NCBI GenBank assembly: GCA_030049955.1
Contig: JASIJX010000276.1
Span: forward strand, 1 to 20,575
Direction: 5' to 3'
Length of the DNA stretch: 20,575 nucleotides
DNA from: Acidobacteriaceae bacterium
GTDB taxonomy: Bacteria; Acidobacteriota; Terriglobia; Terriglobales; Acidobacteriaceae
The notes under the pieces are model-generated. The model was not told the DNA's origin. It saw only the letters and a program-made list of their open reading frames with translations, and did no database searches. Within the stretch, counting starts at the first letter, position 1, and every line of letters begins with the position of its first letter. Shown here piece by piece: positions 1 to 18,664 of the stretch. The translations under genes were made by a program, and so were the position numbers.

Positions 1-1292
1 CCCCGCAATGTCGGAATAATGCTTCGAAACTCAATCTTGGGGAGATATTTCGTGTTAAGCAATCCCTATGTCGTGAAGCAAAACCGCTGTCCTGAAGATT
101 CAGGAAAAAGCCTCTTGCCTCGCGCCGGGAAAGGTGTGCAATTCGCTTCTGGACCACAGTCAGCCTCTTCCGTTTCCGGCGTCGTCTCTCTGGAAGGGGC
201 AGAGGACATCGCATTCTTCGACAACCGCATTGAGCACGTCGGGTTTTGGGGCATTAGTTTGTTGGATGGCTGGCGCAATATTCGGATAGAGGGAAATACC
301 TTCGCCGATCTCGGGGCCGGCGGGGTAAAGATAGACGGAGCCAATTATCCTTCAGATCCGCGGAAGTTTTCGGGCAAAAACCTTATCACCGACAACTTTG
401 TGCGAGGCGGAGGCCGTATCTTTCAGAGCGCTGCCGGAATCCTGATTACCTGCGGTTATTCCAATCTCATTTCCCGCAATGAAATCAGCGACCTCTACCA
501 ATCCGGGATCGCTGCCGGCTGGGACTGGACGCGCAATACTCAGGTATCCAGGGACAACCTGATCGAATACAACCACATTTTTCATTTGGGACAGAAGATG
601 TCCGACGACATGGCGGCGTGTATATCCTGGGAATACAGCCGGGCACGATCGTGCGCAACAACTTGATTCACGACATTCAGCACCGGACCTATGGAGGCTG
701 GGGTATTTACACGGATGCGATGACAGCCCATGTCGTGATCGAAAACAATATCGTCTATGACGTGAGTGCGCATGCCAGTTATGTTCAGGGTGTGGGCGGC
801 GTGAATCGAGAGATAACCATACGCAACAACATCTTTGCGCTGGGAGGAGAAGGGCTCGCCGACTTACCTGAAACGTACGAAGAGAAAGAGCATAACGTGC
901 CGGGATTTTCGGCTACATACGAGCGCAATATTTTTCTTTCCAATGGAAGGCCGGTCTTTGAAGCTGGCGTCGACCCCGCTCCGGAGCACCCTCGCAATAC
1001 TCTCTTTTTGAGCGATCTGAACCTGTTTTGGGACGTGACTGGAAAACCGCTTGTAATGGAACAAAAGACGGGGCCCAAACCGCTGTTTCTGAACTGGACC
1101 GAGTGGCGTGATATCGGGAGTGATATTCACTCCGTTGTTGCCGATCCTAAATTTCGCGACTGGCAGAAAGGCGATTTTACGCTTGCGCCCGATTCTCCGG
1201 CATTCTCTCTGGGCTTCCAACCCATCGATATCGCCGATGTGGGCCCACGGCCGGAAGGAAGGCGCAGCCCGCACGATGACATGTCTCATTAA
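1..1292 (+). pseudogene. Secreted-type right-handed beta-helix protein (GH141-like), 5' truncated by window, frameshifted
   Basis: The frame is open to the first base, so the N-terminus lies outside the window. The protein is a series of short beta-helix rungs with recurring Asn-rich turns (IEGNTF, ITDNFV, ISRNEI, VRNNLI, IENNIV, IRNNIF, YERNIF), which is the hallmark of a right-handed parallel beta-helix. The motifs GVKIDG, DMGG-like, VYILGIQPGT and YGGWGIYTD resemble beta-helix hydrolases of the GH141 type (fucosidase/xylanase); that family call is inference from memory. The frame breaks at 612-617: residues before this are read in frame 1 and residues from the GTG at 618 in frame 3. A single G missing from an ATGGGCGGC-type sequence would restore MSD-DMGGVYILG. 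The C-terminus ends at the TAA at 1290. The product would act extracellularly on a polysaccharide, which fits the alpha-L-fucosidase in the same window. Whether the shift is real decay or a base-calling error cannot be told here. Confidence 0.8.
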
Positions 1293-1418
1293 GCGTGTCC
1301 ATGCACAGCGCATATCGCACGACGACATGTGCTTGGTTCCTGGGAGAATAAAGTTGGAGTTGTCCGAGACACCGGCTCTATTGATCCTGAGGAACTGATT
1401 TTAGACTGACAAAACGCT

Positions 1419-1700
1419 CTATGGAATGACGAAGATGGCCTCTGCGGAGGAGGTTGCGTCCTGCGGTTGGGCACCCGTAGCGACGAGACGATAGCGACCG
1501 GGAACCAAGGCGCGCGAGCCATCGGCCTGAACGACTTGAGATCCGCGTTAGACCCGGTCACGGCCCACCGGTGTAAGCCGGGGATGTGAAGGCGGGAATC
1601 GCCGGCGCGATTTCCAGTAATTGGCCCGCTTTTCCTTCGAGCGTCATGCGTGCGACGAGATCGCCAGCCACGGCGCGCAGAAGCGGGGTTTATGAGACCG
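1419..1700 (-). pseudogene. GH3 beta-glucosidase remnant: N- and C-terminal ends joined by a large deletion
   Basis: Two minus-strand frames meet back to back. From about 1690 down to a TGA at 1558-1560 the frame reads DLVARMTLEGKAGQL followed by EIAPAIPAFTSPAY. This matches the start of GH3 beta-glucosidases and xylosidases (DDLVxRMTLEEKxxQL, then IPRLGIPAY). From about 1550 to the TAG at 1419-1421 another frame reads VQADGSRALVPGRYRLVATG followed by AQPQDA and ends IFVIP. This matches the last strands of the C-terminal fibronectin-III-like domain of GH3 enzymes. Roughly 800 residues of a normal GH3 enzyme are missing between them, and the junction lies near 1540-1562. No signal peptide is in frame. 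The family match is from motif recognition only; the fragment cannot be functional. Confidence 0.62.
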
Positions 1701-1930
1701 CTCGACACATACAGCAAAAGACATAAGCATCTGGGCCACATTAGCATTCACAAAAATCTCGTATGGACGGAGTGACCACAGCTGCGACTGGCGTCACGGC
1801 CGCTAGCGGAAAGATGATCGCCCGCATGAGCCAATCACCCTATCAGCTCTAAATCACCATGGATCACGTGGTTAGGGAATCAGCGCCCATGTCATACAAA
1901 TGCAACCTTCTTTAACGGATCCTTCATCGA

Positions 1931-1950
1931 TAAAGTTAAGGATTGACAAC
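1931..1950 (+). promoter_or_regulatory. Shared 20-base -35-region element, copy 1 (TonB-receptor promoter)
   Basis: TAAAGTTAAGGATTGACAAC. It differs by one base from the minus-strand element at 14519-14538 in front of the GH29 fucosidase (TAAAGTAAAGGATTGACAAC). It includes the -35 hexamer TTGACA at 1943-1948. The identity extends 12 bases upstream of the -35 box, beyond what sigma factor alone would impose, which suggests a common activator or a recent common origin. Confidence 0.7.
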
Positions 1951-1972
1951 TGCAGGCATGTATGCCTATATT
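1943..1972 (+). promoter_or_regulatory. Sigma70-type promoter of the TonB-dependent receptor
   Basis: TTGACA at 1943-1948 and TATATT at 1967-1972 are separated by 18 bases. Transcription would start near 1979, giving a leader of about 120 bases before the ATG at 2099. The hexamers are close to consensus, the position fits the gene, and the same layout (18-base spacer, GGATTGACAAC context) appears in front of the GH29 gene. Confidence 0.72.
1954..1967. promoter_or_regulatory. Operator-like palindrome in the promoter spacer
   Basis: AGGCATGTATGCCT is an inverted repeat with 6-base arms around a 2-base centre. It fills the spacer between -35 and -10 and touches the first base of the -10 box. 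A protein bound here would block RNA polymerase, so a repressor site (for example LacI- or GntR-type) is plausible. The binding protein is unknown. Confidence 0.5.
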
Positions 1973-2098
1973 GCCAATTGCGTTCCTGAAGCAGCGGTTC
2001 CCAACGCCTAACTTTCAGAAGCCCGGTGGCCATCATCCGCCGGGTTGCTGGATTCGCGATGAGATCCGAAACAGCTCTGGGAGTTTGAGGGAGGCAGG

Positions 2099-5000
2099 AT
2101 GAGGATTTTTGATGAGACAAAGATTTGCGACCAGCGATTGATTTTCGGCCGTAGGCTGCTCGCGCTAGTCGTAAGGTTCGTCGTTCTTGCTGTGACATTT
2201 ACGGGCATACTGCAGGCACAAGTCGATACTGGAACCGTGCTTGGAACAGTTGTTGATTCAACTGGTGCGGCCGTTCCCAAAGCCGTTGTTTCGATTAAGA
2301 ACGAAGACACAGGCCTGACGCAACAACAGACGGTGAATGAAACCGGCGGCTACATCTTTACAGCATTGAAAGTGGGAGTCTATACGCTCACGGGTCAGGC
2401 TTCAGGCTTTGAACTCGAGGAGTTGCCCCACATCTCTGTCAACATTCAGCAACAGTTGGTAGTTACCATTACTCTGAAACCGGGGAAGGTTACAGAAACG
2501 GTTTCGGTTTCGGCAGCACAGGAGGCCCTTCAGAAAGAAGATGCCTCTGTTGGGCAGATCGTTGATGAGCACGCGATCAATAATCTTCCCCTCAACGGCC
2601 GCAACTTTACACTGTTGGCGCAGCTGGCCCCGGGCACGACTACCGCGGTTTACGATAACGGCCATGGCGAGTTGCAAAGCGGGACGTTTACGGCAAATGG
2701 CGTAATCACGACCTTTAACAACTACCTTCTTGATGGCATCCCAAATAACAATCTGCAATCCGACTTCGGTGATGGCAATGCCTTCACAATTCTGCCTCCC
2801 CCGGAGGGTCTCGCGGAGTTCAAGGTTGAAACAGGGGACTACTCCGCGGAGTATGGCCGCTCGGGTGGCGCAATCGTCAATGCCGTGACCAAGTCAGGTC
2901 AGAACACCTTTTTTGGCGACATTTGGGAATTTAACCGGAATTCGTTTTTCGATGCCAACGATTTCTTTCTAAAGCATGCCGGGCAACCTCGTCCGCCATA
3001 TTCTCGCAACCAGTTTGGATTCAGCCTTGGTGGCCCGGTGAACATCCCCCATCTCTACCATGGCACTAATCGCACATTCTTTTTTGTCGATTATTCGTCT
3101 CTAAGAAGCGTGCAAGGAGAGGCGTACACCTCATCGGTCCCCACGGCCACGGAGCAATCCTCGGGCTTTACGAACTTCACCGATCTTCTTACATATCAGA
3201 CCGGTACACAAACAGATATCCTGGGCAGGGTCACCAAAATCGGTCAAGTTTTCGACCCGGCAACGACACGGTACCTTAGCAAAGGTTTTGTCGATCCACT
3301 TACTGGCCTGACTGCGACTACGGGCGGCTACGTTCGGGAGCCGTTTGCGGGCAATATGATTCCGGCAAATCGCATCTCTTCGGTCTCGAAGGGGCTGCTG
3401 GCTTTATTCCCGTTACCGAACGCGAACAGTGGGAACATCGTGAACAATTACGTCAGTGCTCCTTTGCTGCAGTCGGACTTTAACACCTTTGACTCTCGCG
3501 TAGATGAGAATATCTCACCCAGGGACCAGCTATTTGCGCGCGGCAGTTACGGCTTTCTACCGCGTGTTATCCCGAATCCCTGCCCAACCCTTGCCAATTG
3601 CGGCACGTCTGCTTCCGTAGGTACCGAGAGCGATGTCGTGTTCGGTGCAGCCATTGGAGAAACCCACACCTTCTCGCCCTGGGTTCTCAATGAATTACGA
3701 CTCGGCTACGACCGCGACTGGATGAACAGAGTTGAGCCCTACGGCGCGGAGGCTGGGCTGAATGCCCAGTACGGCATTCCTGGAATACCGGACGTGGCAG
3801 GAAATGGCGGCCTCGAGCAAATGAAAATCACCGGACTAGCCGAGTTGGGCACGCACAACAATCTCCCCTTGGACGAGATCGGCGTGGAATCGGTATACCT
3901 GGATAATGTTTCTGTCGAAAAGGGTCGCCATTCCATGCGCTTTGGCGTGGACTACGAGAGATCGAAGAACGCCATTAACTCGGGCCAATTTCCTCATGGT
4001 CTAACGTACTACACCGGCTCATATTCCGACCTACCAACTACATCTGCCGGCGCTGCCGGCAACACAGCAAGCACGGGTCCCGCTCAATTTGTTATTGAAC
4101 CGATCGCTTCGACTGCGACAGGCTGCACGGTAATCGTTGGCGTGGCCGCCAGTGGCACCGGTTGCGAAACATATAACTACGTCGGCGGGGCATCCCAGCT
4201 TGAGGGATCGCCGTTATCTCAACAGGATTATCGGAAACCCTATTTAGGCCTGTATTACAACGATACCTGGAAGCTTACAAGCAAATTTACCGCGACACTG
4301 GGCATGCGCTGGGAATACTTTGAGCAAGGCGTCGACAAGTATGGCCACGGCGCCAACTTTGTTCCGTCCTTTGCAAGCGGCAACGGCACTTCGTTGTATT
4401 TGATTGACGCTCGCTCCAAAGACATCCCACTGTCTGCATCATTCACTTCATTGATGGCGCAGGAGGGAGTCGCCATCACGTACACCTCGAATAAGCAGCT
4501 CAGTCAAGTGAATGAGAAGAACTTCGGGCCCCGAGTCGGCTTTGCGTGGAGCCTTTGGCCAAAGACAGTACTGCGTGGTGGATTCGGAATCTCGTATGCC
4601 GGATTCTATAATCGGGGAGACGGATATAACGCCGGTGATAATTATCCCTTCTCATTTAGCATTGACATCACTTCAAACAACCAGGGCGGGCCTGCATCGG
4701 ATTCCGGCAATACCATTGGCCCTGTGGACAAGGGGTTTTCAGACATCCCTTTGACGCCGACACTGGCACTGGGGTATCAGATAGGGCCTCGCGGAAACCA
4801 GTACATTGTCCGCGTGCCTTATGTCGAAGTAGGCAATCTGACTTTGCAACAGCAGTTGAGCACTTCGCAATACTTCCAAATTGCGTATGTGGGTAGTCTT
4901 TCGCGACATGTCGAAAGCACGATTGACTTCAACAGACCAGATTTGGTCATTCCAACAACATTCTCGCTTAGCCCTGTGAGTGCCAGCGCTACTTGCAATG

Positions 5001-5905
5001 ACGCAGGTTTGTATCACGATGTGGACCCCGGCAATCCTAACCCGACGACAGAAGATACCAAGGTCTACTACGACCAGTATCCATGTCTTCCAACGAGCAA
5101 CATCTACGACTGGAATGAGGGATCGAATAACTATAATTCGCTCCAGGCAAAGTATGAGAAGCTGAATCGCAATGGAACAAGCCTGATCGCCGACTACACG
5201 TGGTCGAGATACCTCGGATATGGTTCAGATACAAATATTCTCAATTCAGAGTCATATCGTGCACCGCAGGTTCCGGGGTTTGGGATGAAAGGCGAGTATG
5301 GTCCTGAAGATTTCCAATCGGAGAATGTCGTCCATGGAGGCGGGACATGGGCGCTTCCTTTCGGTTATGGCCGCAAGTGGCTTAGCACCAAAGGATTTAC
5401 AAACGATCTCCTGGGCGGCTGGAATATGGATGGAATCGTTACCTATCAGAGCGGTCAACCGGTGAACGTCAGTTGCGCAAGTACACATGCAGCCTCCATT
5501 GCTTGCTATGCACTTGCCACGAGGTCACAAGTGTATAGCGGCGCTCACAACATAACTCATTGGCTCAATGCCGCAGCGTTTAGCGATCCAACGCAGAACC
5601 CAACAACTCCAGAGGACACGAACTTTGCCGCGATGGGCGCAGCGCCGTCCCAAGCCAATGGCCCGGCCTTCCACCGTGGCGATGTAAGCGGATGGAAATC
5701 ATTCACCATGCCCAGGGAGAACGTGTTGGAGTTTCGTGTAGACATGTTCAACGTAACGAACACGCCGAATTTCGGTCAACCGGGGACACTGACTTATACG
5801 AGCTCCGCTTTTGCGTCGATCACAACTGAAAGAGACGCTCCGAACGATTCTCGAGAGATGCAGTTCTCCGTAAGATATCTCTTCGGAAGCGGAAACCAGC
5901 AGTAG
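2099..5905 (+). CDS. Oar-like TonB-dependent outer-membrane receptor
   Basis: This is an outer-membrane beta-barrel transporter, probably importing glycan fragments or another large substrate using TonB energy. Residues 1-41 hold a basic stretch and a hydrophobic signal segment ending LQAQ. Residues 42-130 form a carboxypeptidase-regulatory-like beta-sandwich (TVLGTVVDSTGAAVPKAVV, ETGGYIF, GVYTLTGQASGF). The plug follows at about 135-265 (INNLPLNGRNFTLLAQLAPG, YLLDGIPNNN, YSAEYGRSGGAIVNAVTKSG), and the barrel runs to the C-terminus with the terminal beta signal QFSVRYLF. This layout and the 1268-residue length are typical of the large TonB receptor families of Acidobacteriota. The ATG at 2099 is preceded by GAGGGAGG (about 2087-2094), a good ribosome-binding site. 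It stops at TAG. A promoter lies at 1943-1972. The gene is intact, unlike many neighbours, and is followed 95 bases later by a secreted zinc hydrolase. The substrate cannot be read from sequence. Confidence 0.95.
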   Translation: MRIFDETKICDQRLIFGRRLLALVVRFVVLAVTFTGILQAQVDTGTVLGTVVDSTGAAVPKAVVSIKNEDTGLTQQQTVNETGGYIFTALKVGVYTLTGQASGFELEELPHISVNIQQQLVVTITLKPGKVTETVSVSAAQEALQKEDASVGQIVDEHAINNLPLNGRNFTLLAQLAPGTTTAVYDNGHGELQSGTFTANGVITTFNNYLLDGIPNNNLQSDFGDGNAFTILPPPEGLAEFKVETGDYSAEYGRSGGAIVNAVTKSGQNTFFGDIWEFNRNSFFDANDFFLKHAGQPRPPYSRNQFGFSLGGPVNIPHLYHGTNRTFFFVDYSSLRSVQGEAYTSSVPTATEQSSGFTNFTDLLTYQTGTQTDILGRVTKIGQVFDPATTRYLSKGFVDPLTGLTATTGGYVREPFAGNMIPANRISSVSKGLLALFPLPNANSGNIVNNYVSAPLLQSDFNTFDSRVDENISPRDQLFARGSYGFLPRVIPNPCPTLANCGTSASVGTESDVVFGAAIGETHTFSPWVLNELRLGYDRDWMNRVEPYGAEAGLNAQYGIPGIPDVAGNGGLEQMKITGLAELGTHNNLPLDEIGVESVYLDNVSVEKGRHSMRFGVDYERSKNAINSGQFPHGLTYYTGSYSDLPTTSAGAAGNTASTGPAQFVIEPIASTATGCTVIVGVAASGTGCETYNYVGGASQLEGSPLSQQDYRKPYLGLYYNDTWKLTSKFTATLGMRWEYFEQGVDKYGHGANFVPSFASGNGTSLYLIDARSKDIPLSASFTSLMAQEGVAITYTSNKQLSQVNEKNFGPRVGFAWSLWPKTVLRGGFGISYAGFYNRGDGYNAGDNYPFSFSIDITSNNQGGPASDSGNTIGPVDKGFSDIPLTPTLALGYQIGPRGNQYIVRVPYVEVGNLTLQQQLSTSQYFQIAYVGSLSRHVESTIDFNRPDLVIPTTFSLSPVSASATCNDAGLYHDVDPGNPNPTTEDTKVYYDQYPCLPTSNIYDWNEGSNNYNSLQAKYEKLNRNGTSLIADYTWSRYLGYGSDTNILNSESYRAPQVPGFGMKGEYGPEDFQSENVVHGGGTWALPFGYGRKWLSTKGFTNDLLGGWNMDGIVTYQSGQPVNVSCASTHAASIACYALATRSQVYSGAHNITHWLNAAAFSDPTQNPTTPEDTNFAAMGAAPSQANGPAFHRGDVSGWKSFTMPRENVLEFRVDMFNVTNTPNFGQPGTLTYTSSAFASITTERDAPNDSREMQFSVRYLFGSGNQQ

Positions 5906-5928
5906 CGCTCGCTGTCACTTGGATCGAG

Positions 5929-5962
5929 CAACGCCTCAGCGAGAAATGAGGCTGGGGCGTTG
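5929..5962. terminator. Hairpin between TonB receptor and phospholipase-like gene (no T-tract)
   Basis: CAACGCCTCAGC (5929-5940) pairs with GCTGGGGCGTTG (5951-5962) at 11 of 12 positions around a 10-base loop, 24 bases after the receptor stop codon. No T-run follows (TACCTCTG), so it may attenuate or protect the transcript rather than end it fully. Confidence 0.45.
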
Positions 5963-6000
5963 TACCTCTGAAGGACTTTAAAAAGAGAAGATTACAAACT

Positions 6001-7470
6001 ATGAATGTTCGCCAGTGCTCGTGGTCACCGATCATTGCCTCTGTCTGCATTGTGTTTGCTGCAGGCTTCATCCCGGCATATTTGCACGCGTGGGGAGGCA
6101 TTCCTCATCAACAGATTATTGACGGCGCTCTTACGGCAATTCCGGCCGACGACCAGATAGACGTGCGTCTAGGGAGCCAAGTCGAACATCTTCGCGACAC
6201 GGTTGAGATGGGTGACTGGGTAGACTCCTTCGTAGTTGTTCAAGAAAACTGGCATGTCCCTCCGGATGATTATCCGCAAGTCAGTTCCGAATACTTTGGC
6301 AACGATTACTTGCTCTTTCCTGCCGCACCCCACACATTCGATCACGGTGTTCCTGGGGTCCGGGGAACCTATGTTCCCTTCTTTCTGAGAGCACTACAGG
6401 CGTTGAGAACGGAAGACCAGGAGAATGCGGTTCGCTGGATGGGAAGCTTATTGCACTTCGTTACAGATTCAGGATCCCCACCGCACGCCATCGGCTTGAC
6501 CGGACCAAACCACACCAAAATGGAAAACTGGCTGGATGCGAGCCACATCGATCTTCACGAATATAAGCCCTTACTGTTGGGAAACACCGATGAAGAGGCG
6601 GTAAAGGGATTGCGACGGCGCATGGATGGCCTGATCGAGCGCAATGGGAAAATTGCCAAACGCATGCTCCCCTTTGCAGAAGCCAATGACAGAGCGACAA
6701 TCGAGCCGATGGCCTTGGATTGCGCGGAGGAAACGGCAAGAGTGACCGCGGACGTGATTCACACGCTGCTCGTATTGTCTGCGAAGACGACTACGGCGGA
6801 ATCGGGTTCGATTGTGGCCACTGTAACGGCTCCGGCCACAGCCGAATTTCCGCTGCTTCCTGCCAAACTCGTCTTGTTAGGCACCAACTACAGCACCCTG
6901 AGCGCACCTACGGATAGGCTCGCAGCAAGATATTCCGGCACGTTTTACTTTAGGAATCTGCCGCCGGGAACGTATCGCGCCGCGATCGAACGCGCCGGCG
7001 CGGAACCGCTCTTTACTGACCCGTTTACCGTATCAAACGAAGAACAACGTCATTTCAGTTGGCATCTGCAGAGTTCGTTGACGCCGGGAAACCTCCTCCA
7101 GAACGCCTCATTCTTATTGCACTGGGTTTCATCGACAAGCCCGGACCACTGGCGCCATGAAAACCAGTGCCATTGCTGGCACTCTGACAACATCCCTGTA
7201 ACTCCTGGACGCGTTTATCGCGCCGGCGTCGTTGGCAAAGGGTCGTCCGCACCGAAGGCATCGATTGAATGGATGGCCTACCACTGGAAAAGGACGGACG
7301 ACCCGGCAGTGGAGATACCCGCGACTGCTGGAGGCATTGCTATAACCGCACCTCCTGCCGCAGAGTATGTGCGCCTTGCGCTCGCGGGAGACGATCCACC
7401 GCAAAATTTACTACGTGAAGCGGTGTTACTCTCCGCAGCCGCGCCTATCTCCGTGGCATCTCCGCATTAA
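6001..7470 (+). CDS. Secreted zinc-dependent phospholipase C / S1-P1 nuclease-fold protein with C-terminal beta domains
   Basis: A signal peptide (hydrophobic 10-28, ending AYLHA) leaves Trp31 as the first mature residue. In zinc-dependent phospholipase C enzymes the mature N-terminal Trp is a zinc ligand. The rest of the trinuclear zinc set is visible with family spacing: Asp72 (GDWVDS), His111 or His115 (HTFDHG), His152-xxx-Asp156-xxxxx-His162 (LLHFVTDSGSPPHA) and His171-xxx-Glu175 (HTKMENW). It is therefore likely an active extracellular or periplasmic phosphoesterase (phospholipid or nucleic acid); the substrate is uncertain. Residues about 268-350 look like a carboxypeptidase-regulatory-type beta-sandwich (FYFRNLPPGTYRAAIE). 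Residues about 355-485 look like a jelly-roll binding domain beginning NLLQNASF. The catalytic family is usually about 250-300 residues, so the C-terminal extension is unusual. The ribosome-binding site is weak (AAGAGAAG). It lies 95 bases after the receptor and 35 bases before the AraC regulator, so the three may be co-transcribed. Confidence 0.82.
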   Translation: MNVRQCSWSPIIASVCIVFAAGFIPAYLHAWGGIPHQQIIDGALTAIPADDQIDVRLGSQVEHLRDTVEMGDWVDSFVVVQENWHVPPDDYPQVSSEYFGNDYLLFPAAPHTFDHGVPGVRGTYVPFFLRALQALRTEDQENAVRWMGSLLHFVTDSGSPPHAIGLTGPNHTKMENWLDASHIDLHEYKPLLLGNTDEEAVKGLRRRMDGLIERNGKIAKRMLPFAEANDRATIEPMALDCAEETARVTADVIHTLLVLSAKTTTAESGSIVATVTAPATAEFPLLPAKLVLLGTNYSTLSAPTDRLAARYSGTFYFRNLPPGTYRAAIERAGAEPLFTDPFTVSNEEQRHFSWHLQSSLTPGNLLQNASFLLHWVSSTSPDHWRHENQCHCWHSDNIPVTPGRVYRAGVVGKGSSAPKASIEWMAYHWKRTDDPAVEIPATAGGIAITAPPAAEYVRLALAGDDPPQNLLREAVLLSAAAPISVASPH

Positions 7471-7505
7471 ACACGGACGAGTTAACGCCGTAGGATGGGC
7501 TCCTG

Positions 7506-8456
7506 ATGAAGGCCAGCTTTGAAGAAATTGTCGGTCATGCGTCGCGGCTTCTGGTCTTTGAGCGATGTGAGTTTGCTTTTCTATCTCACTGGCACTATCA
7601 CTCCGAATTTGAGTTAACACTTATTCTTGACAGCCAGGGACAAAGATTGGTGGGCGACTGCATTCAAGGGTATGGCCCCGGCGACCTGGTGCTCATTGGC
7701 CCTAACCTGCCTCACACCTGGCGTTCCACGTCATCTGACCCCAAGCGACAATTGCATCGTGCGGTGGTTACGCAGTTTCGCGGGGATTTCTTGGGAGACC
7801 GCCTACATCAAGCGCGGGAGCTTCATGAGGTTGCCCAATTGCTCCTCCGGGCAAGGCGCGGAATTGCATTTGGAAATACTCCAATCGGCCGAACTGTGGC
7901 TAAGTATCTTGCGGATCTCCCGACTCTTTCACCGGCCAGACAACTAGTTACCCTACTTTCGGCATTGGTGGATCTTGCGGAGGAGAGGCAAGGTGCAGTG
8001 CTGGCGTCAAGTGGACCGCAATCCTTTCCCCGGACGGCGAGCAAGCGGCGCATTGATAATATCTATCAGTATTTGGACCAGCATTTCAACGAAGACGTCG
8101 ACTTTGCCCGTCTTTCATCACAAGTTCACATGGATCAAGCTTCTTTATGCCGCTTTTTTAAGCGCACGACCGGCCGCACAATGACTGAATACATTAATGA
8201 GCTGCGCATTGCAGAGGCTACGAAGTGCCTCATTGAGACGGATGAGAGCCTGATTGACATTTGTTACCGGGTGGGTTTCGGTAATTATGCCCATTTCAAC
8301 CGCCAATTCAAGCGCATTAAGGGATGCAATCCTGCTTTGCTCCGCAAGGAATTTTCTTTACACGGAGCTTCCGGATGGAGCTCCATGGAACAACTGAAAA
8401 AAGGATTGCATGAAGGGAGATCTCCGGCCGGAATCACCGGGTGTGCGCCCTCTTGA
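7506..8456 (+). CDS. AraC-family transcriptional regulator
   Basis: This 316-residue cytoplasmic regulator has an N-terminal cupin-like sensor (residues about 20-75: HWHYHSEFELTLI, GYGPGDLVLIGPNLPHTW). The His pair and GDLVLIGPNLPH are typical of AraC sensors that bind a small sugar. Its C-terminal double helix-turn-helix lies at about 183-283. The first helix-turn-helix is around DFARLSSQVHMDQASLCRFF; the second carries the AraC signature IDICYRVGFGNYAHFNRQFK and the end NPALLRKEF. The ATG at 7506 is the only sensible start, because an upstream ATG at 7494 runs straight into TGA. It begins 35 bases after the phospholipase-like gene. The location suggests control of this sugar locus. It is the only regulator in the window and so the best candidate for acting at the two similar promoters (1943-1972 and 14497-14526), but that link is inference. 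Confidence 0.92.
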   Translation: MKASFEEIVGHASRLLVFERCEFAFLSHWHYHSEFELTLILDSQGQRLVGDCIQGYGPGDLVLIGPNLPHTWRSTSSDPKRQLHRAVVTQFRGDFLGDRLHQARELHEVAQLLLRARRGIAFGNTPIGRTVAKYLADLPTLSPARQLVTLLSALVDLAEERQGAVLASSGPQSFPRTASKRRIDNIYQYLDQHFNEDVDFARLSSQVHMDQASLCRFFKRTTGRTMTEYINELRIAEATKCLIETDESLIDICYRVGFGNYAHFNRQFKRIKGCNPALLRKEFSLHGASGWSSMEQLKKGLHEGRSPAGITGCAPS

Positions 8457-8519
8457 AAGTCATCTTATAGATGCCTTCGAAGGATGCGGCGAAACAGAAC
8501 GTTCTTATGAAGTCGGCCA

Positions 8520-9017
8520 TTACCCTCGTATGCGTGCCAGTTTTGTGATGCGGCCCGTCTTATTCCAATCGGATATATAGATACTTGCGTCCTCGTCGAT
8601 GAAGCATCCGTGTGCCGCGCTGAACGTGACAGCGGAGATTGCGGATGGGGCGAGGTCATAGTTGGCCCATTGGGGTCGACGTGAATTATCGCCGAGAAAC
8701 GCGACCGGAACATTGTCGCGGTCGAGAATAACGGCACGGTCCTCGATCTCCGAAATGACCGCATAATCTCCATAGAAACTGATCTGGCAAGGTCGGCGCA
8801 GATGTTCGGTGACAGTACGTACAAACCTTCCGTCGAAGTCGCCGTGTGTGCCGCCAAAGTCGATTCCAGCGGGCAACTTTCCCCGCTCGGGAATCACCCG
8901 ATAAGTCCACTCGCCATTGCCTGTAAAAAAGTCTGCTCCGCCCGGCTGCGGCACCTTTCTCTGCTCGTCACGCGCGTTCCCCGCTTCGATCCTCTCCGAA
9001 GCGGGCAGTCGGCGCAT
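8520..9017 (-). pseudogene. NHL/six-bladed beta-propeller protein, internally deleted remnant
   Basis: The frame reads EWTYRVIPERGKLPAGIDFG GTHGD near its start (about 8840-8920), then abruptly FDGRFVRTVTEHLRRPCQIS, then DRDNVPVAFLGDN, FSAAHGCFIDEDASIYISDW and NKTGRITKL to a TAA at 8520. Both ends match a family of secreted NHL-repeat proteins related to the lyase part of peptidylglycine amidating enzymes. Several propeller blades that should lie between GGTHG and the FDGxFVR strand are missing. The reading frame continues across the deletion, near 8840-8850. No signal peptide is visible in front; the frame reaches back to 9104 only through unlikely sequence rich in Arg and Phe, and the first ATG is at 9017. 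It lies downstream of the decayed glycoside hydrolase on the same strand and is convergent with the AraC gene. It is most likely non-functional. Confidence 0.72.
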
Positions 9018-9094
9018 ACGCCATCGGATCAGAAAAGCGGGAAGCACCGACGCTTTCCGCTTTCCTGCACCTTGCCGAAAGAAAAAGAACCGCC

Positions 9095-11863
9095 TTAGGG
9101 GCAAGTGGTTGTGTCAAACAGCTCAGGCTGGTTATATACCGACTTAGAATCGCCGCCGGCGACAGTATAACTGGCTCCTGCAGCGTGTATTCACAGGTCA
9201 TGCCGGTTGGCACTGTATGAGAAGCTGGAGTCGAGCGGGGTGTACCATACCAGCCAGCCCGTGTTGCCGCCAGTTTCGTTAATCGGGCAAACCCAGGGCG
9301 CATTCTGAATGGTCCCGCTGGAGAATGTGCTGGTATCGTAGCACTTTGGGGTTCCCATCAGCTCCCAGGTCACGCTGCCATCAGTGGTCTGGTAGTACAT
9401 GCCTTTCGCCCATGTCGGTGCCGATGACCCTGACGTGCCAGCAGTTACAACGCGTTGCAGGCCAAACGTGCCATCGTAGACCGTGTCGTTTACCGCGTAG
9501 GCTTGGTTTTGCGCCCAGGACGACCACGACGACGAAGAACCCGAGAATGTTACACCATTTAGCCATTTATACATTCGGCTGAAGTTGCGGCCGGTAGCCG
9601 ATGGAATAAAAATAATGCCGCTACGCCCACCTGAATTTGTATTGGCAACCACGTCCTCCTAGGTTATCTGAGTGCTGCCGCTGCCGTCAGTAACTGTGCC
9701 GCCTTGCGTGCTGTTCCAGCTCGGTGCCGAACTTCCTGACACTCCGCCTCTTGGGCTTCCTGAACATGGGTACCATCCCAAACTAAGGCTCCTTAAGCAT
9801 AGCTTGTCACGCAGGCCAGTTTGTACTTTCAGCTGTCCACGTGACTGTGTTATCCGATGTCGTCTGGCCCGAGGTGTTGTTGAAGCTGGATTGGCTGGGC
9901 CCGTTGCCGCTTGTTCCTGCAGTGGTGCACTCCTGAATCGTTACCCGTCCCAAATAAAATTGCCTATGCTATATGCGGTTCCAGGCTGCCATGCCTTTGC
10001 GGGCAGGAAGTAGAGTGGCCCCCAGGTAGTATTATCCGTCTGATACCAAGCGTTAAAAGCATCCCCGCTCGCAGCAGTCAGAATAATCTGCCGCGCAACA
10101 TACGATTGATCAATGTAATTGGTAAGGCTATCATCATGAGCATCCGTTGGTGAGGTTGCTGTGGTAGTGCCCTAGTCGGAGTCATACCATATGCCATAAC
10201 TGCTCTCGGTATTCCATACCGGCGTTGAGGTAGGGAAATAGCTGTAATTGTCAACCGTGTTTGCCTGGGATAGGATACCCGTGCTGGGATTGCCCATCTG
10301 GTTGATCACACTGATCACCGAATCGCGACAATAAAGATGGGTCGGCTCTGTCGAGCTCACCGAAGTAAAGTTGCTGGGGTTATTCGCCGCAGTGCAACCC
10401 GGTTCAATAGAACTATAAGGTACATTCGTCTCCGGCATGGGATAATACTGCCCCGTGGCTGAATTTAACCTGGATGGATACGGATGAACGCTGATGGCAT
10501 CCGGAGTTAAGTCCAGGCCTACTCCCGAATGGCGGCTGGATTCCGTGGCATGAAGGTACCAATAGTATAAGAACTGGCCCATTGCCTGGGAATATGCAGC
10601 TGAGCAATCGTCATTTGTGCGCGGTGCCACCGGACAATGCTGATGATACCCATCGAGTGCAGATACGCTCCCTGCAATAAAGTAACAGTCGGCGCAGAAT
10701 TGATGAATAATATCATCAGCGTCCGTCTGCATAATCGCAAGCTAAAGGTAGTTGCCTTGCCAAGATCCATCGGAATTGAATTCATTCCACCCTTCGAAGT
10801 AGTGAATTGTGCACTGCTCTTTAAGTGGAGAAGCGGGAACACTCGTGACATTGCAGTTCTGCGCCATGAACCAGGTGACAAATTCTCTGAAGTAGCAGTC
10901 TCCTGTGACCGACGGGTTATATACATCGAGCCCGCTTATGCCCCCTATATTCGATTGACATGTATCCGTGGCCTGAACATCTGAGGGGGATAATTGGCGC
11001 CGTAGGTGACATACGCCAGGTCAGTTCCGCTGGTAGTGTAGTTGACCCGAGTCTCCAGTGTGTTTCCGTTGTAGTAATTCTCAGGCAGCGAAAATGTGAT
11101 GGCTAAAGATGCGCCTGAACCGCTCACAGCGGTCAGGGAAGAGGCGGTCGTGTTTAAGCTATAGCCATTGTCGAGAGTGCCGGCGTCAGCTATCGCGATG
11201 ACATCGTAGACCGGGCTGGATGCCTGGATAGTAAACTCCGTGGCATCGATCGTGAGTTGAACCGTGCAGGTTCCGGTGGTACATCCTGTCACGCTAACAG
11301 CGGAAACTGGCCAGCCTGAACCTCCTCCGCTGGAAGCCCATCCCGGTGCACCAAGAAACGTATAGAGTAGGTTGCCGGCGATTTCCGTGTTTCCGCCTTC
11401 TGTGATTTTCGAATTTGCATTCTGGCAGTCAGCGTAAGGAATCCACCCTGAGTTGTCCTCAGGAGCTGAGATGCTGGAGCAGTTGCCGGACCATGAAAAA
11501 ACGAGGTTGCCCGCGGTAGAACTGAAGGTTCCACGCGCGGTCTCTATATTGTCCTAACTGTTGCCGGCATTTATACGAGAGACTGTGGGGTTGGGTGGCG
11601 CGTACTCTGTGTTGTTTGAGAACGGCCAATTGTAGAAGTCCAGGTTCAGCGCCTCAGAAACCGGGACATTATATCCGCTGTAATACGGCGGCGTAATATC
11701 CTGGTTGGTTGCGTAGGGACGTTTGTGCTCCAGCTCCGAACGCAGCCAGGGCCAGCATGAAGAGAGTGAATGCGCTTAGATGCGCGGACAAGCTCCGTCC
11801 GGCAATGTTGAATGCCTGATTGTGACGGGGACTGATGCGTCTTTCGGGGAGATGCAGTGACAT
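9095..11863 (-). pseudogene. Large secreted clan GH-A-like glycoside hydrolase with three binding repeats, multiply disrupted
   Basis: The original start is ATG 11861-11863, with GGAGGAGA 5 bases upstream and a signal peptide (LSAFTLFMLALAAFGAGAQ). The protein can be followed to a TAA at 9095-9097 by switching frames. In-frame TAG codons occur at 11554-11556, 10742-10744, 10172-10174 and 9659-9661. Frame changes lie near 11690-11720, 10984-10988 (a C missing from a C-run), 9950, 9750-9830 and 9200-9220. Catalytic signatures survive: HYFEGWNEFN (acid/base Glu on strand 4 of a TIM barrel) and PVWNTESSYG (nucleophile Glu on strand 7), which place it in clan GH-A; the exact family is not resolved. 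Downstream are three related modules of 50-60 residues (about 9830-10000, 9665-9830, 9345-9530) with AY-x-(I/V)-G/N, (V/I)-(W/Y)-DG, TSGSSAPTW and TDGSVTW motifs, probably substrate-binding. The four TAGs could each be CAG-to-TAG changes. It is not translatable as one protein. Confidence 0.8.
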
Positions 11864-12438
11864 TGTTCTCCTCCATTAAATGGATACGGCGATTCCGCCG
11901 TTCGCGTTTGGCAATCGATGAAGGTGAATGATCGACCTGCCTGGTTGGGTTATCGCTAGCCGTCGTGAATACCTGGTTGCAGCGCATTGACTTGCCGCGC
12001 AAGAGGCGAGACCCATCCTGCACTCTCCGGACTTTTACATTGTGTCTTCCGCTTCGGACGATGCCGGATAAAAGATGGCGTGAGAACGATTGGGAACCTG
12101 CTTCTGGCGCACAAACGGAATGAGTATAGAGTTGATAGCGATTGGTGTCTCCGCCTTAATTGTTCAGATGATGCACTCAATTGATAGGACGGCTCGGCGC
12201 ATCGAGTACCCCGGCCAATCTGACTTTGCCGGGTTCTGCTCTACGCGCTTCGTTTCGAAATTGTGACGCTCTTTTAACAAAGACCTTAATTGGTAACTCG
12301 AGCTGATCATTGGCTACAATTCCAGCCGGGCAAGAGGACGCGGCCAATTGTCGCAAGATCAGAATGGCCGTTGAACGGGAGCGGCCGTGATCGAAGGGTG
12401 GGTCGGGCGCTGTCATGCAATATGCGCCGCTGCCGAAC

Positions 12439-12681
12439 TCAGTGACAGATTCGGCTAGGTCCAATGACCGAGGAATCCAGCTCCTTACTCAAAATCCTAA
12501 AGAGCTCTTCATCCTTGGCCCATGCCGTTTGAATCGCCTCAGAAGCTTTCATAAGGCACTTTCCGACTCTACATCCAATTGGTTCTCGATCAGGTCCATC
12601 AAGACAGTAACCGCCGTTTCTTGGTTCGAAGACGAAGATAGTCAGCTCATTCGCTTTCTGATCTCGCATATTATTTGTTAG
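12439..12681 (-). pseudogene. Unidentified small coding-like remnant
   Basis: One frame reads MRDQKANELTIFVFE, then later KASEAIQTAWAKDEELFRIL and SKELDSS to a TGA at 12439. Between them a neighbouring frame gives a more protein-like TAVTVLMDLIENQLDVESES, suggesting two compensating shifts in an old gene. I recognise no family. It could equally be chance; amphipathic helix-like composition is the only support. Confidence 0.22.
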
Positions 12682-12691
12682 CTTGTTCTCG

Positions 12692-12708
12692 CGGAGGCTT
12701 TCCCTCCG
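12692..12708. terminator. Short hairpin downstream of the GH29 gene
   Basis: CGGAGG, loop CTTTC, CCTCCG forms a perfect 6-base-pair stem about 100 bases past the fucosidase stop codon. No T-run follows on either strand, so termination is only a possibility. Confidence 0.28.
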
Positions 12709-12809
12709 TGCTATCAGCGAAATCGCATTCCATTCGCATTTTGGGACGGTTTGTCGAAGCGGCCGGAGGCCAGTCATTCAAATCGTCAGCCGTCGTCGCT
12801 CATTGCTGA

Positions 12810-14402
12810 TCACGCAAAATTAATCTTCAGTCCGATTCCTATGTCCGCTGCCACCGGCTTTTCGCCCAGCAGTGCCACGTGCAGCCCATCCGCATCCTGC
12901 GTAAACCGGAGCGCCTGATTTTGTCCAAGCATGCGCACATCCTGAACTTTGCCCGGCTGCTGCGGACTTGCCGTACCGAGAGCACGTATTGAAACTTCCT
13001 GCTGCGGCCATCCTTGCACGAATGCGTATAGGGTTTTGCCTCGGCTGGTGAAGCGAATGTCTGCCGCACTCAGAGGGGGTTCCTTGCTCTCGTTAGGGTT
13101 GTACTCCTTGCCGGTGGACGGAACAGCTACCTTCAACGCAGGCCCCTCGCCATGGATCAACCACGGCCGCGAACCATAAATGCCCTCGCTGTTTACATTC
13201 ATCCACGTGGTGATTCCTTCAAGCACTCTCATCTCATCGGGATCCAGCTCGCCTGATGCGGGCAGCGGAAAATTCAGCAGCAGATTGCCATTCTTGCTGA
13301 CAATGTCGACGAGCAGATCGATAACCTTCTTGGGAGTCTTGTAGACCTGCCCCTCCTTATAGTGCCAGTCGCCGATGCACGTATCCGTCTCCCATGGCAC
13401 CGGCCAGATTTGATCTGCCACGCTCCGCTCGCGATCTAGGGCGCACGTTCCTTCAGCGCAATCCGACAGGGTCTTGCTTCCGTATACGGCAGCTGCCTGC
13501 CCGTGCTGATTTACCGGCCCTACGTTGTACAGCTCGGCCACGCAGGCAAGGCCATATTCTTCGAATGGAATTCCACCATCCGTGTACAACAGATCCGGCT
13601 GATACTTATCTACGACGTCCTTGATCCTGCGGAAGTACTGAAGCTTCCACCTATCCGGCGCCACGCGTCCCATAGCCTGCGCCGTCCGCGCAAAATCTGC
13701 CGGCATACCGGCGTAATCATGATAGAGATCGGCATACGCGGGATTGGAACCATCGTACGGCACCCCCGCTAGCGGCCCTGTCGTGTCACTCAGGTGTGCC
13801 GGCGCAAACCAGTCGAAACTATTCGACAGATGCTCGCTTATACCGAAGCGAAGACCCCGCCTGCGCGCCGCCGTGGCCCACATGCCCACGATGTCTTTGC
13901 GTGGCCCGCAGTTCACTGCATTCCACCGCGGCTGGTACTTCGAGTCCCAGAGGTCGAAGTTATCGTGATGCACGCCCATGCTGAAAAAGTACTTTGCTCC
14001 GGCTTTCGCGTACAGATCGATCAGATGGTCCGGATCCCAGCGCTCGGCGGTAAAAAGGTGGATCAGGTCCTTGTAGCCAACTTTCGATGGCGGTCCAAAG
14101 CGTTGCACATGATATAAGTTCTGCGGAGAGCCCTGGATGTACATCTGACGCGCGTACCAGTCCCCGTCGCCCACTGCTGACTGTGGACCCCAGTGTGCCC
14201 AAATGCCGAATTTGGCGTCTGCAAACCAATCGGGAATTGTATACGCCTTGAGCGAGGGCCGCGTGCCGATATACCGGCCCTGGGTAATCTCAATCCCGTT
14301 GCCTGCGCTCTGCGCCAGCGCCGCTTTCATGCCGCCGTTAAAAGAAACCGCCGGAACTGCACTCCCAATCAGCCGTAAAGCCTGCCGTCTGCTGAGTTTC
14401 AT
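12810..14402 (-). CDS. Secreted GH29 alpha-L-fucosidase
   Basis: This 530-residue enzyme is likely to remove alpha-L-fucose from glycans outside the cytoplasm by a retaining mechanism. The start ATG is at 14400-14402, with GGGAGAG just upstream. Thirteen more in-frame codons exist upstream but lack a ribosome site and would spoil the signal. Residues 1-30 are a Tat-type signal (LSRRQALRLIG, ending AALA-Q). The GH29 barrel follows: WFADAKFGIWAHWGPQS (59-75), YAKAGAKYFFSMGVHHDNFDLWDS (131-154; the His pair at 145-146 is typical), RGLRFGISEHLS, and DLLYTDGGIPF (270-280), where Asp275 is the expected nucleophile. Residues after about 420 form the C-terminal beta-sandwich. HHDNF replaces the more common HHDGF, so specificity for another 6-deoxy or related sugar is possible. 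The gene is intact, has its own promoter at 14497-14526 and sits downstream of the sugar-catabolic operon. Confidence 0.9.
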   Translation of the reverse strand: MKLSRRQALRLIGSAVPAVSFNGGMKAALAQSAGNGIEITQGRYIGTRPSLKAYTIPDWFADAKFGIWAHWGPQSAVGDGDWYARQMYIQGSPQNLYHVQRFGPPSKVGYKDLIHLFTAERWDPDHLIDLYAKAGAKYFFSMGVHHDNFDLWDSKYQPRWNAVNCGPRKDIVGMWATAARRRGLRFGISEHLSNSFDWFAPAHLSDTTGPLAGVPYDGSNPAYADLYHDYAGMPADFARTAQAMGRVAPDRWKLQYFRRIKDVVDKYQPDLLYTDGGIPFEEYGLACVAELYNVGPVNQHGQAAAVYGSKTLSDCAEGTCALDRERSVADQIWPVPWETDTCIGDWHYKEGQVYKTPKKVIDLLVDIVSKNGNLLLNFPLPASGELDPDEMRVLEGITTWMNVNSEGIYGSRPWLIHGEGPALKVAVPSTGKEYNPNESKEPPLSAADIRFTSRGKTLYAFVQGWPQQEVSIRALGTASPQQPGKVQDVRMLGQNQALRFTQDADGLHVALLGEKPVAADIGIGLKINFA

Positions 14403-14496
14403 TGCTCTCCCTTTTCCAGCGGTGATCGAAATTCGCCACACTCGGCGCTACGGCCGACCTGCGCATCCCGCCTTAGCTTTCGAATCAAATAGCGAC

Positions 14497-14526
14497 ACTA
14501 TAGACAAGCGCAATATGCGTTGTCAA
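14497..14526 (-). promoter_or_regulatory. Sigma70-type promoter of the GH29 gene
   Basis: On the minus strand TTGACA (14521-14526) and TATAGT (14497-14502) are separated by 18 bases. Transcription would start near 14490, giving a leader of about 88 bases before the ATG at 14402. The strength and spacing match the TonB-receptor promoter. It lies in the 275-base gap after the ROK gene, so the fucosidase can be expressed separately from the operon upstream. Confidence 0.72.
14503..14524. promoter_or_regulatory. Operator-like inverted repeat in the GH29 promoter spacer
   Basis: Outer arms GACAA and TTGTC and inner arms CGCA and TGCG are inverted repeats, with one unpaired base shifting the two centres. 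The site fills the -35/-10 spacer and overlaps the -35 box, so occupancy would block polymerase. Its sequence differs from the palindrome at 1954-1967, suggesting a different repressor or a degenerate site. Confidence 0.45.
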
Positions 14527-14538
14527 TCCTTTACTTTA
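14519..14538 (-). promoter_or_regulatory. Shared 20-base -35-region element, copy 2 (GH29 promoter)
   Basis: On the minus strand TAAAGTAAAGGATTGACAAC, 19 of 20 identical to 1931-1950. It contains the -35 box of the fucosidase promoter. Confidence 0.7.
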
Positions 14539-14555
14539 ACGTTACTTTACGTTAC
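14531..14555 (-). repeat. Tandem GTAA-type repeats just upstream of the GH29 -35 box
   Basis: Read on the minus strand, GTAACGTAAA, GTAACGTTAAA and GTAAAGGA follow each other with a 10-11-base period, i.e. about one DNA helical turn. TAACGTTA (14537-14544) is also a perfect palindrome. Repeats in phase with the helix next to a -35 box suit a dimeric activator such as an AraC protein. This is inference. Confidence 0.45.
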
Positions 14556-14677
14556 GGCACACGCTTAAGAATTTGCCTTATGGCGCTCGCAAAGACAAGA
14601 TGATGACACTTGTAACTCGGGTGCCGTCGGCGGTGACGACGCAATCGCGCGCCACCCAATGACGCGGGGATCACGGC

Positions 14678-15663
14678 TTACTTCGGCTTCCGCCGGATTG
14701 AGTCCAAGCGTTCCCGCGCCATGAGCGCTGCACCGACAACCCCGCTCAAATCACCTAGTTCCGAGATCACGATCGGAACCTCCACCCCGCGCGGATAGCG
14801 AAAGATATGCCGGTTCACATGCGAGCACAACTCGTCGATGAAGAACCGGGCTGCACCCATTGCTCCGCCCGCGAGGATGATGACCTGAGGGGAATAAGCG
14901 TGGACTACGTTGACGAGCAACCAACCTAAAGCTCTTGTCCATCGCGAAAGTTCGTCCACACAAAGCGAATCGCCGCGGGCAACTCCGTCCTCCATAATCG
15001 CGCGAAAGTCGACATCAAATGGATCTTTCCAATATCGGTCCGTCAAGACGGAAGGGATGCCGCGTTGCAATCCACTGCACACCGCCAGAATCAGCGCGGT
15101 GGCAGAGCACAGCATTTCCGCGGTCCCGCGAGCTCCGATCAGGCAGAGCTGATCGTGACTGGTATCGATGACCAGATGACCGATCTGGGTGCCGAACATT
15201 AGATGCGGATCGTCGATAATGCGACCGTCAATCATAACTCCTGATCCCACACCTGTTCCGATGGTCAATGTTACCGCCCAGCCATAGCGCGCGCGTTTCC
15301 AGCATAGCGCTCAGCGTACATAGCAAGCCGACCATCGTTATCCGCCCAGACTGGAACCTTGAGATCATCACGGAGGCGCGAAACAATCGGAAATCCCTCC
15401 ATTCCCTGAATTTTCCCAGGCAATAGAACGACGCCACGGTCCGGATCAGTCGGTCCAGTGAGTCCAAGTCCAACGGCTATAGGTTTGCCGTGCTTGATAA
15501 TGAGCTGGCTTAAATGTTGAACGATAATGTTGTACGAATCCTCGGCTCCCGATGCCTTGTCGACAGTCAGCACCTCATGCGACTCAATTGCACCTTCCAG
15601 GGTGACGGACCCGATCTTGATCCGCGTTCCGCCCCAGTCAACTCCAATCAAAAACGGCTGCAT
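14678..15663 (-). pseudogene. ROK-family sugar kinase, frameshifted in a GC-dinucleotide run
   Basis: It would phosphorylate a hexose or amino sugar in the cytoplasm with ATP. The N-terminal part (ATG 15661-15663 to 15271) carries the phosphate-binding motif DWGGTRIKIG (residues 9-18), GLTGPTDPDRG and WADNDGRLA. The C-terminal part (to 14678) carries TIGTGVGSGVMIDGRI, QIGHLVID, and a C-terminal VIILAGGAMG. Together they make about 325 residues, a normal ROK length. The frame breaks at GCGCGCGCG (15287-15295): removing one GC pair restores NARYGWAVTLTIGTGVGSG. The usual ROK zinc motif (CxCGxxGC after GH) is reduced to LCLIGARGTAE, so structural zinc is probably absent. The start lies 3 bases after the oxidoreductase stop. 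Real decay, phase variation or an assembly error are all possible. Confidence 0.85.
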
Positions 15664-15666
15664 GAC

Positions 15667-16998
15667 TTACTCCGCTTCAAGGATCGCGCCTTCGCTGCGC
15701 AAACGGTTGCGCAAATCTTCAGTCGCTACGTCACGAGGAGTGCACCTGTTCTTCCATGCCATGGCCGCGGTGGTTCCGGCAGCGTGGCCCATGGCCATGC
15801 ACTGCGCCATCGAACGGACACTAGCGTGCGCATCATGCGAGGCAGAAAAACATCGGCCGGCGACCAGCACATTTTGTCCATCCCGCGGGATCAATGTTCG
15901 ATAAGGTATGCCCACGCATTGTCCCTCCGGAAGATAGTGCCAAACGGTATCGGCGCCTTCATGATGGTCTTCGATGGGGGCGCCCCACAGTCCAATCTGA
16001 TCCGCGAATTGCCTGCCGGTCAAGACGTCCTCTCTCGTCAACCGATAATCGCCGTAGACCCGCCGAGTTTCCCTAACGCCGATCTGCGTCCCGAACGAGG
16101 CCAGTTGTGCCTTTTCATAGCCGGGTACGTAATCTCGCAGAAAGCGTATATATTCGATCGCCTGCGACCGTCCTTCCATTTCGGCGGCTGATAGCAGTTC
16201 TGGATCGGTCGCATTAACCGCGCCGGATTCCAATTTGCGGAAGGATGGCAGGCGGGTCATGATTGTGGCTGTCATGTGATCCACGGGGGTGATGTGATCG
16301 CTGCCCTCTTTCCGTGGCAACCTGAATTTTCCTGATTCAGCCGCGCGTGCCATCAAGGCGTGCAGATCACTCTTCGTGATGGATTTTCGTCTTGCGATAT
16401 CGACATTCACGAGTTTGAACGTAGTTGTCAGGGTTTGGGCAGGCTCGACGTCACCAGCGTTTTCGTATCCGATGCCCGCGAAGTGACAAATGTCGGCGTC
16501 GCCCGTAGCGTCGATGATGAGATCGCCATCAAAGCGCCGCAGGCCAGCCTTTGTGGCCACGATAAGTGATTCGGTTCGGCCCTCCCTTGCGACTACATCT
16601 TGAACCCAGGCGTTGAGCAGGATTTCAACGCCCGCTCCTTTCACCAGGTTCTCCCAGACGACCTTTAAGTACTCGGGGTGATAGGTAACTCCTGTTCCGG
16701 CACCATGCGTATTAGGCCTCTCTACCCATGATGAGAATTCCTTCAATCCGTCGATCACGTCATCTGAGATTCCAGCAACCACTTTGCGGGCGCTGCTACC
16801 AGGAGTGTAGAACCCGTAAAACGTGTCCAATACTGCGGTGCTTGTTCCGCCCAGGAACGGCAAGCGTTCTAAAAGGAGCGTCTTGGCGCCACTGCGTCCT
16901 GCAGCGATGGCTGCTGTAGCGCCTGCAGAACCCGATCCGACAACGATTACGTCATATTGCCTGTTGTCCAGGATTTTCTTAGCGTATATAAACGTCAT
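15667..16998 (-). CDS. FAD-dependent oxidoreductase (FAD_oxidored family)
   Basis: This 443-residue flavoprotein probably oxidises or reduces a sugar-derived intermediate in the cytoplasm. YDVIVVGSGSAG (residues 15-26) followed by LLLERLPFLGGTST is the Rossmann dinucleotide-binding start. LIIDATGDADICHFAG is the second nucleotide-binding segment. NVLVAGRCFSASHDAHASVR near the C-terminus closes the FAD site, as in the family often annotated as FAD-dependent oxidoreductases of PF12831 type. I chose ATG 16996-16998 because its bases overlap the TGA that ends the SDR gene once that gene's frameshift is corrected (ATGA overlap). A longer frame to 17091 is only SDR sequence read out of frame. It ends in TAA, 3 bases before the ROK start. 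The gene is intact. The exact substrate is not known. Confidence 0.9.
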   Translation of the reverse strand: MTFIYAKKILDNRQYDVIVVGSGSAGATAAIAAGRSGAKTLLLERLPFLGGTSTAVLDTFYGFYTPGSSARKVVAGISDDVIDGLKEFSSWVERPNTHGAGTGVTYHPEYLKVVWENLVKGAGVEILLNAWVQDVVAREGRTESLIVATKAGLRRFDGDLIIDATGDADICHFAGIGYENAGDVEPAQTLTTTFKLVNVDIARRKSITKSDLHALMARAAESGKFRLPRKEGSDHITPVDHMTATIMTRLPSFRKLESGAVNATDPELLSAAEMEGRSQAIEYIRFLRDYVPGYEKAQLASFGTQIGVRETRRVYGDYRLTREDVLTGRQFADQIGLWGAPIEDHHEGADTVWHYLPEGQCVGIPYRTLIPRDGQNVLVAGRCFSASHDAHASVRSMAQCMAMGHAAGTTAAMAWKNRCTPRDVATEDLRNRLRSEGAILEAE

Positions 16999-18600: not shown

Positions 18601-18664
18601 GAGCGGTTCTCCTATTCTGTACGAAATTACATTCAATCGAGTTCTTGGGATCTCGGCGTGGAAT

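Follow-up and report, generated by a model that had tools for sequence, protein, structure and literature searches.

A near-identical sequence element spans the -35 boxes of the TonB-type receptor and alpha-L-fucosidase promoters in an acidobacterial carbohydrate cluster

Results

Two promoters of one cluster share a 20-base element

In a stretch of acidobacterial DNA of 20,575 bases (54% G+C; hereafter the window), the promoter of a TonB-type receptor gene (P1) and that of a GH29 alpha-L-fucosidase gene (P2) share an element that is real and non-random, and with moderate confidence we propose that it would be a common binding site over the -35 box through which both units are co-regulated. 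The copies of this element lie at 1931..1950 on the plus strand (TAAAGTTAAGGATTGACAAC) and at 14519..14538 on the minus strand (TAAAGTAAAGGATTGACAAC) and comprise 12 bases upstream of the -35 box, the box itself and 2 bases after it. The original prediction of a match at 19 of 20 positions is confirmed in both coordinates and count; the consensus of the two copies is TAAAGT(T/A)AAGGATTGACAAC, and the sole mismatch is the seventh base, which is T at P1 and A at P2. P1 (1943..1972, plus strand) consists of TTGACA (1943-1948), an 18-base spacer and TATATT (1967-1972), and P2 (14497..14526, minus strand) consists of TTGACA (on the 14526 side), an 18-base spacer and TATAGT, each agreeing with the consensus at 11 of 12 positions and showing the 18-base spacer and near-consensus -10 box that had been claimed for it. 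Both show the characteristic features of sigma70 promoters, with near-consensus hexamers at a spacing of 16-18 bases located upstream of a start codon with a Shine-Dalgarno sequence, and they score best among the 14 sigma70-like sites of window bases 1-20000, a total that is itself ordinary (shuffles give 12.6).

No other non-overlapping pair of 20-mers in the window is identical at 19 or more positions, and the 20-mer consensus has exactly 2 matches in the window at up to 3 mismatches compared to 0 in 100 shuffles. Given two TTGACA boxes, at least 13 of 14 identical flanking bases are expected with p=1.7e-7 (calculated with the composition of 2008 intergenic bases and before allowing for choice among pairs). 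Among 299,925 random pairs of intergenic flanks (300,000 drawn, with 75 identical draws excluded), the best agreement was 12/14, reached once. The element is therefore common beyond chance to two functionally linked units, those of the receptor and the fucosidase. Looser searches of the window returned 9 matches to the 17-base motif at up to 5 mismatches (5.2 expected), of which the 7 other than P1 and P2 each have 5 mismatches, and 4 matches to the 12-mer at up to 2 mismatches (1.05 expected), of which the two extra ones lie in the fucosidase gene (12951) and in a set of direct repeats at P2 (14554). These direct repeats (14529..14555, minus strand) show shifts of 5, 10, 11 and 16 bases and run into copy 2 of the element, with GTAACGTAAA / GTAACGTTAA (10/11-base shift) and TAAAGTAACG / TAAAGTAAAG as examples; no direct repeats of this kind are found at P1.

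The genes behind the promoters and their linkage

P1 precedes the gene of a TonB-dependent receptor-like outer-membrane protein (2099..5905, plus strand) with CarboxypepD_reg, Plug and OMP_b-brl_4 domains. Behind it on the same strand follow the gene of a 489-aa protein (6001..7470) without any Pfam or NCBIfam match, whose motifs such as HFVTDSGSPPHA may resemble those of zinc-dependent phospholipase C/P1-nuclease proteins, and the gene of an AraC-family protein (7506..8456) as a candidate regulator. The AraC protein matches HTH_18 over the cut-off together with a weak N-terminal cupin match below Pfam's cut-off; it has a RhaS/AraC build and does not reach the cut-off of any of the 25 NCBIfam models listed. 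P2 precedes the GH29 alpha-L-fucosidase gene (12810..14402, minus strand), whose start was placed at the ATG at 14402 based on entry P0001, which has 530 residues, and on a GGGAG ahead of this ATG; the N-terminus MKLSRRQALRLIG encoded there (14402-14310, minus strand) resembles a Tat export signal. The minus strand also encodes the end of a KDPG-type aldolase, a sugar porter, a sugar isomerase-domain protein, an FAD oxidoreductase and a ROK kinase in two pieces.

The ROK-family kinase gene (15663-14678, minus strand) is split by one in-frame stop into open reading frames at 15663-15271 and 15268-14678, which are in one frame as judged from their positions and each of which matches ROK models. 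Two other genes are each represented by two non-continuous open reading frames, one at 1-1292 (plus strand) with beta-helix-like repeats and one at 17788-16979 (minus strand) that appears SDR-like, both by reading of the translation, a pattern that suggests frameshifts due to either decay or sequencing errors. The short, broken open reading frames that follow one another at 11292-8520 (minus strand), of which two scanned pieces have no Pfam match, might belong to one gene that is decayed or full of errors. In the predicted receptor leader, a ten-pair hairpin AGCCCGGUGG...CCGCCGGGUU is found at 2020-2046 (plus strand). Folding of the P1 leader with the first codons gave a z-score of -1.49 (11/200 shuffles fold as well) and folding of the P2 leader a z-score of 0.98, and Rfam and tRNA scans returned no matches.

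By protein similarity, named relatives of the three proteins would place the source in or near Acidobacteriaceae, with the fucosidase 67% identical to a protein of Acidicapsa ligni and the receptor 57% identical to one of Paracidobacterium acidisoli, besides four Acidobacteriaceae bacterium records among its best 120 matches; the best 120 matches of the AraC protein include Terracidiphilus sp. (56%) and Acidobacteriaceae bacterium (53%). Among the best 120 matches per protein search, one relative each of the receptor (P0263, 62%), the AraC protein (P0122, 61%) and the fucosidase (P0006, 78%) share the same source tags and list precisely the same length, 30,138 bases, for their longest contig. 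They apparently lie on this one contig, from which we infer that the three genes are probably kept together in a relative.

Palindromes in the promoter spacers

Each spacer was originally described as filled by an inverted repeat of its own, and such repeats do exist at both promoters but are insecure as a signal. The repeat in the P1 spacer, AGGCAT-GT-ATGCCT (1954..1967, plus strand), is a possible operator with weak statistics; it has its core GGCAT-GT-ATGCC at 1955-1966 and, when the flanking bases are counted, overlaps the -10 box by that box's first T. Arms of at least 5 bases occur in 3.6% of 20,000 random 18-mers, and arms of at least 6 bases, with the boxes included, in 2.3% of random spacers, which makes the P1 palindrome moderately unusual. 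The P2 spacer contains the exact dyad CGCA-TAT-TGCG at 14519-14509, whose 4-base arms are ordinary (at least 4 bases in 18% of random 18-mers and in 38% with the boxes included). With one bulged base, this dyad extends to GACAACGCA-TAT-TGCGcTTGTC (14503..14524, minus strand), a repeat of 9 pairs that starts within the -35 box and ends with the spacer. Nine such pairs are found in 0.2% of simulated spacers by a measure that is post hoc and was chosen after looking, and P1 is unremarkable on the same measure (6 pairs; 11%). The two palindromes differ in sequence and are both off-centre, covering spacer positions 7-18 in P1 and 2-12 in P2. As to further copies of the palindromes, GGCATNNATGCC has one occurrence in the window, whereas CGCANNNTGCG is found again at 12891 and 15829 and is thus not specific. 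Separate, gene-specific repression via these palindromes, as had been suggested, would be a guess that builds on palindromes of which one is ordinary.

The AraC-family protein as a candidate reader of the element

The AraC protein is encoded in the same cluster as its proposed targets and is the nearest candidate factor that could read the shared element. Regulators of the AraC class usually occupy two half-sites, and the shared 16 bases from -47 into the first 4 bases of the -35 box are about one half-site in size. At P1, potential second half-sites are no better than in shuffles in either direct or inverted orientation (equalled by 56% and 99.7% of shuffles). At P2, a direct partner starting 16 bases upstream agrees at 11/16 positions (3% of shuffles) and belongs to the direct repeats described above, and an inverted partner is equalled in 60% of shuffles. 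In neither orientation do the two promoters have a second half-site in common, and the shared core contains no dyad (4 pairs at best), so the idea of AraC as the reader lacks its expected signature.

Occurrence of the element in other genomes

Many occurrences in front of unrelated genes had been named as the observation that would reduce the element to a general promoter style of the host. We see no sign of the element being part of the group's ordinary promoter in three substitutes for such a survey, matches to the strict pattern in a GTDB-wide genome collection, matches to the element in acidobacterial plasmids and near-consensus promoters of these plasmids. The strict pattern (AAAGTNNAGGATTGACA-17/18-TANNNT) has 26 matches in the GTDB-wide collection, a number close to chance for 18 specified bases (an estimate, made with no control, of 15 at even composition and more in AT-rich genomes). 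None of the 26 carries an acidobacterial label in this collection, which may hold few or many acidobacterial genomes; all labels are non-acidobacterial or unspecific, with L007 labelled only as "bacterium" and its genome lacking a receptor match. Weak receptor matches are found in 6 of the 26 genomes, and a set of 100 genomes comprising G007 and 99 relatives contains 2; neither set yielded an acidobacterial genome. The lack of the strict motif from any genome labelled as acidobacterial argues against an old, conserved regulon signal in this strict form. In viral contigs, the strict pattern without the -10 box has 66 matching stretches that we take as background; receptor relatives in these contigs show no match to the pattern. 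The corresponding search with the fucosidase produced 2 pattern matches, neither of them a relative.

Six plasmids of Granulicella tundricola and Acidisarcina polymorpha (1,344,020 bases; 1.34 Mb) contain 3 matches at up to 3 mismatches compared to 2 for a reversed-pattern control, i.e., the level of chance. Near-consensus promoters (at least 5/6 per box and at least 10/12 in all) are scarce in this DNA, with 13 sites in 1.19 Mb, of which 11 lie outside open reading frames (193.6 kb) and 2 inside (998 kb). The scan covered 1,192,063 bases, comprising all of W01 and W04, 120,000/121,048 bases of W02, 300,000/300,292 of W03, 100,000/188,167 of W05 and none of W06. Seven of the 13, all in front of open reading frames and two of them the same sequence on two Acidisarcina plasmids, were compared with the 12-mer and match it at 5/12 positions at best; one of the seven reaches 11/12 consensus positions. 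Promoters of the quality of P1 and P2 thus seem rare in the plasmid DNA scanned. In 400,000 bases of W01, 4 intergenic TTGACA promoters are devoid of the element as judged by eye, and 4 more inside open reading frames were counted only. This baseline is thin, as it consists of plasmids, not chromosomes, with receptors that are 25-27% identical to the window receptor (best five records).

Discussion

A proposed common control site as the best explanation of the shared element

The most plausible reading of these observations is that P1 and P2 would be genuine sigma70-type promoters, with P1 driving the receptor gene and perhaps the gene at 6001-7470 and the AraC gene behind it and P2 driving the fucosidase gene. 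The shared 20 bases would then be a predicted binding site extending over the -35 box and 12 bases upstream, and one DNA-binding protein at this site would control both units and switch uptake and fucose release together. The spacer palindromes may add gene-specific repression, though we hold this with low confidence. What the analysis shows is the sequences, where they lie and how far they exceed chance; binding of the element by a protein, its being a single protein and the sign of its action are inferred. Of the common control of uptake and fucose release that was originally proposed, the non-chance element shared within one carbohydrate cluster stands, but the second half-site expected for AraC was not found, and the element is present in only two copies, of which that at P2 alone has direct repeats upstream.

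A class II-type activator at the predicted site is a tentative possibility to which we lean slightly over a repressor occluding the -35 box, which is more doubtful. With promoters this close to the consensus, an activator is not obviously needed, so activation is not supported over repression; near-consensus boxes equally allow a repressor over the -35 box or no regulator at all.

The latter would be the case if RNA polymerase itself reads the element, with the alpha CTD on the UP-like A-rich stretch and sigma on the extended -35 region of two strong constitutive promoters that have no dedicated regulator. This reading, the first of two main rivals, seems somewhat unlikely, even though both promoters match the consensus at 11/12 positions and their bases from -46 to -38 agree with the consensus of the proximal UP subsite (AAAAAARNR) at 6 and 7 of 9 positions. 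However, a UP-like contact leaves the GGA before the -35 box and the AC after it unexplained, and the stretch is absent from the 7 plasmid promoters and the 4 promoters of W01, which are small and distant baselines.

The second main rival, that the match arose by chance or survives from an old promoter copy and has no function today apart from the -35 box, is unlikely. Some pair with at least 19/20 identities is found in 3 of 150 first-order Markov sequences of the window, and many comparisons would have been possible, from which this one was chosen by eye. Given these sequences, it is the position on two promoters that makes the case, with the pair coinciding in exact register with the window's two best promoters and with the low conditional probability given above. 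A recent copy would also leave identity in the flanks, but identity beyond the 20-mer is at chance level (14/48 upstream and 16/52 downstream), so constraint is more likely than recent copying.

Less probable still is a more elaborate version of common control, a lineage-specific two-layer switch in which one regulator would act at the -35 site of both units and the different spacer palindromes would give each unit its own repressor. The regulator in this switch would perhaps be the AraC protein, which would then also control the unit from which it is transcribed.

Recognition of the extended -35 sequence AAGGATTGACAAC by an alternative sigma70-family sigma factor could account for a conserved block that crosses the -35 box on both sides, but it is very improbable given ordinary, TATAAT-like -10 boxes and no sigma factor among the window proteins scanned (two sets of ten entries), although the gene of such a factor could lie elsewhere in the genome. 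Least likely is MerR-type control, in which a MerR-family activator corrects the twist of a long spacer by binding to a dyad within it: near-consensus boxes with dyads in the spacers are indeed present, but MerR promoters have 19-20 base spacers with a centred dyad, whereas the P1 and P2 spacers have 18 bases with dyads that are off-centre and unlike each other, and no MerR family member is among ten proteins scanned.

Significance

Acidobacteria can carry very many receptors of the TonB family, as illustrated by 25 receptor-family domain matches on a single 476-kb Granulicella plasmid (some of them pieces of one gene), and we found no paper on the control of acidobacterial TonB-type receptors in the literature searched. 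Promoter elements shared within catabolic clusters are an ordinary kind of finding, and the present one is of local interest. A site that links a receptor with one particular glycosidase would make it easier to assign a substrate, here a fucosylated glycan, to that receptor. Within the same literature, the two-layer switch would, if true, be the first mapped control logic of an acidobacterial TonB-receptor/glycosidase cluster.

Comparison with known systems

P1 and P2 resemble sigma70 housekeeping promoters (TTGACA - 16 to 18 - TATAAT) in their hexamers and 18-base spacers but differ by the shared 12+2 bases around the -35 box, which the core consensus does not explain. The upstream part agrees with the consensus for the proximal subsite of an UP element at the 6 and 7 of 9 positions noted above, but the identity of P1 and P2 runs on through the GGA past the -35 box. 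With MerR-family promoters they have the spacer dyads and near-consensus boxes in common, and they differ in the shorter spacers, in the off-centre, unrelated dyads and in the absence of MerR from the ten proteins scanned. Without a core dyad or a common second half-site, the element is unlike the sites of most dimeric regulators. In class II promoters of AraC and RhaS, an activator half-site overlaps the -35 box, and the 16-base, half-site-sized stretch overlapping the -35 boxes of P1 and P2 is similar to this arrangement, as is the AraC/RhaS-like gene in the cluster. Yet P1 and P2 lack a common second half-site, and both have a perfect -35 box, as promoters that depend on an activator rarely do. 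Compared to the TonB-receptor/glycoside hydrolase neighbourhoods of acidobacterial plasmids, where the promoter element does not occur beyond chance, the window differs in its promoters but is similar in its gene content, since plasmid pACIX902 of Granulicella tundricola carries a receptor of the same family beside a gene with a glycoside-hydrolase domain, just like the cluster described here.
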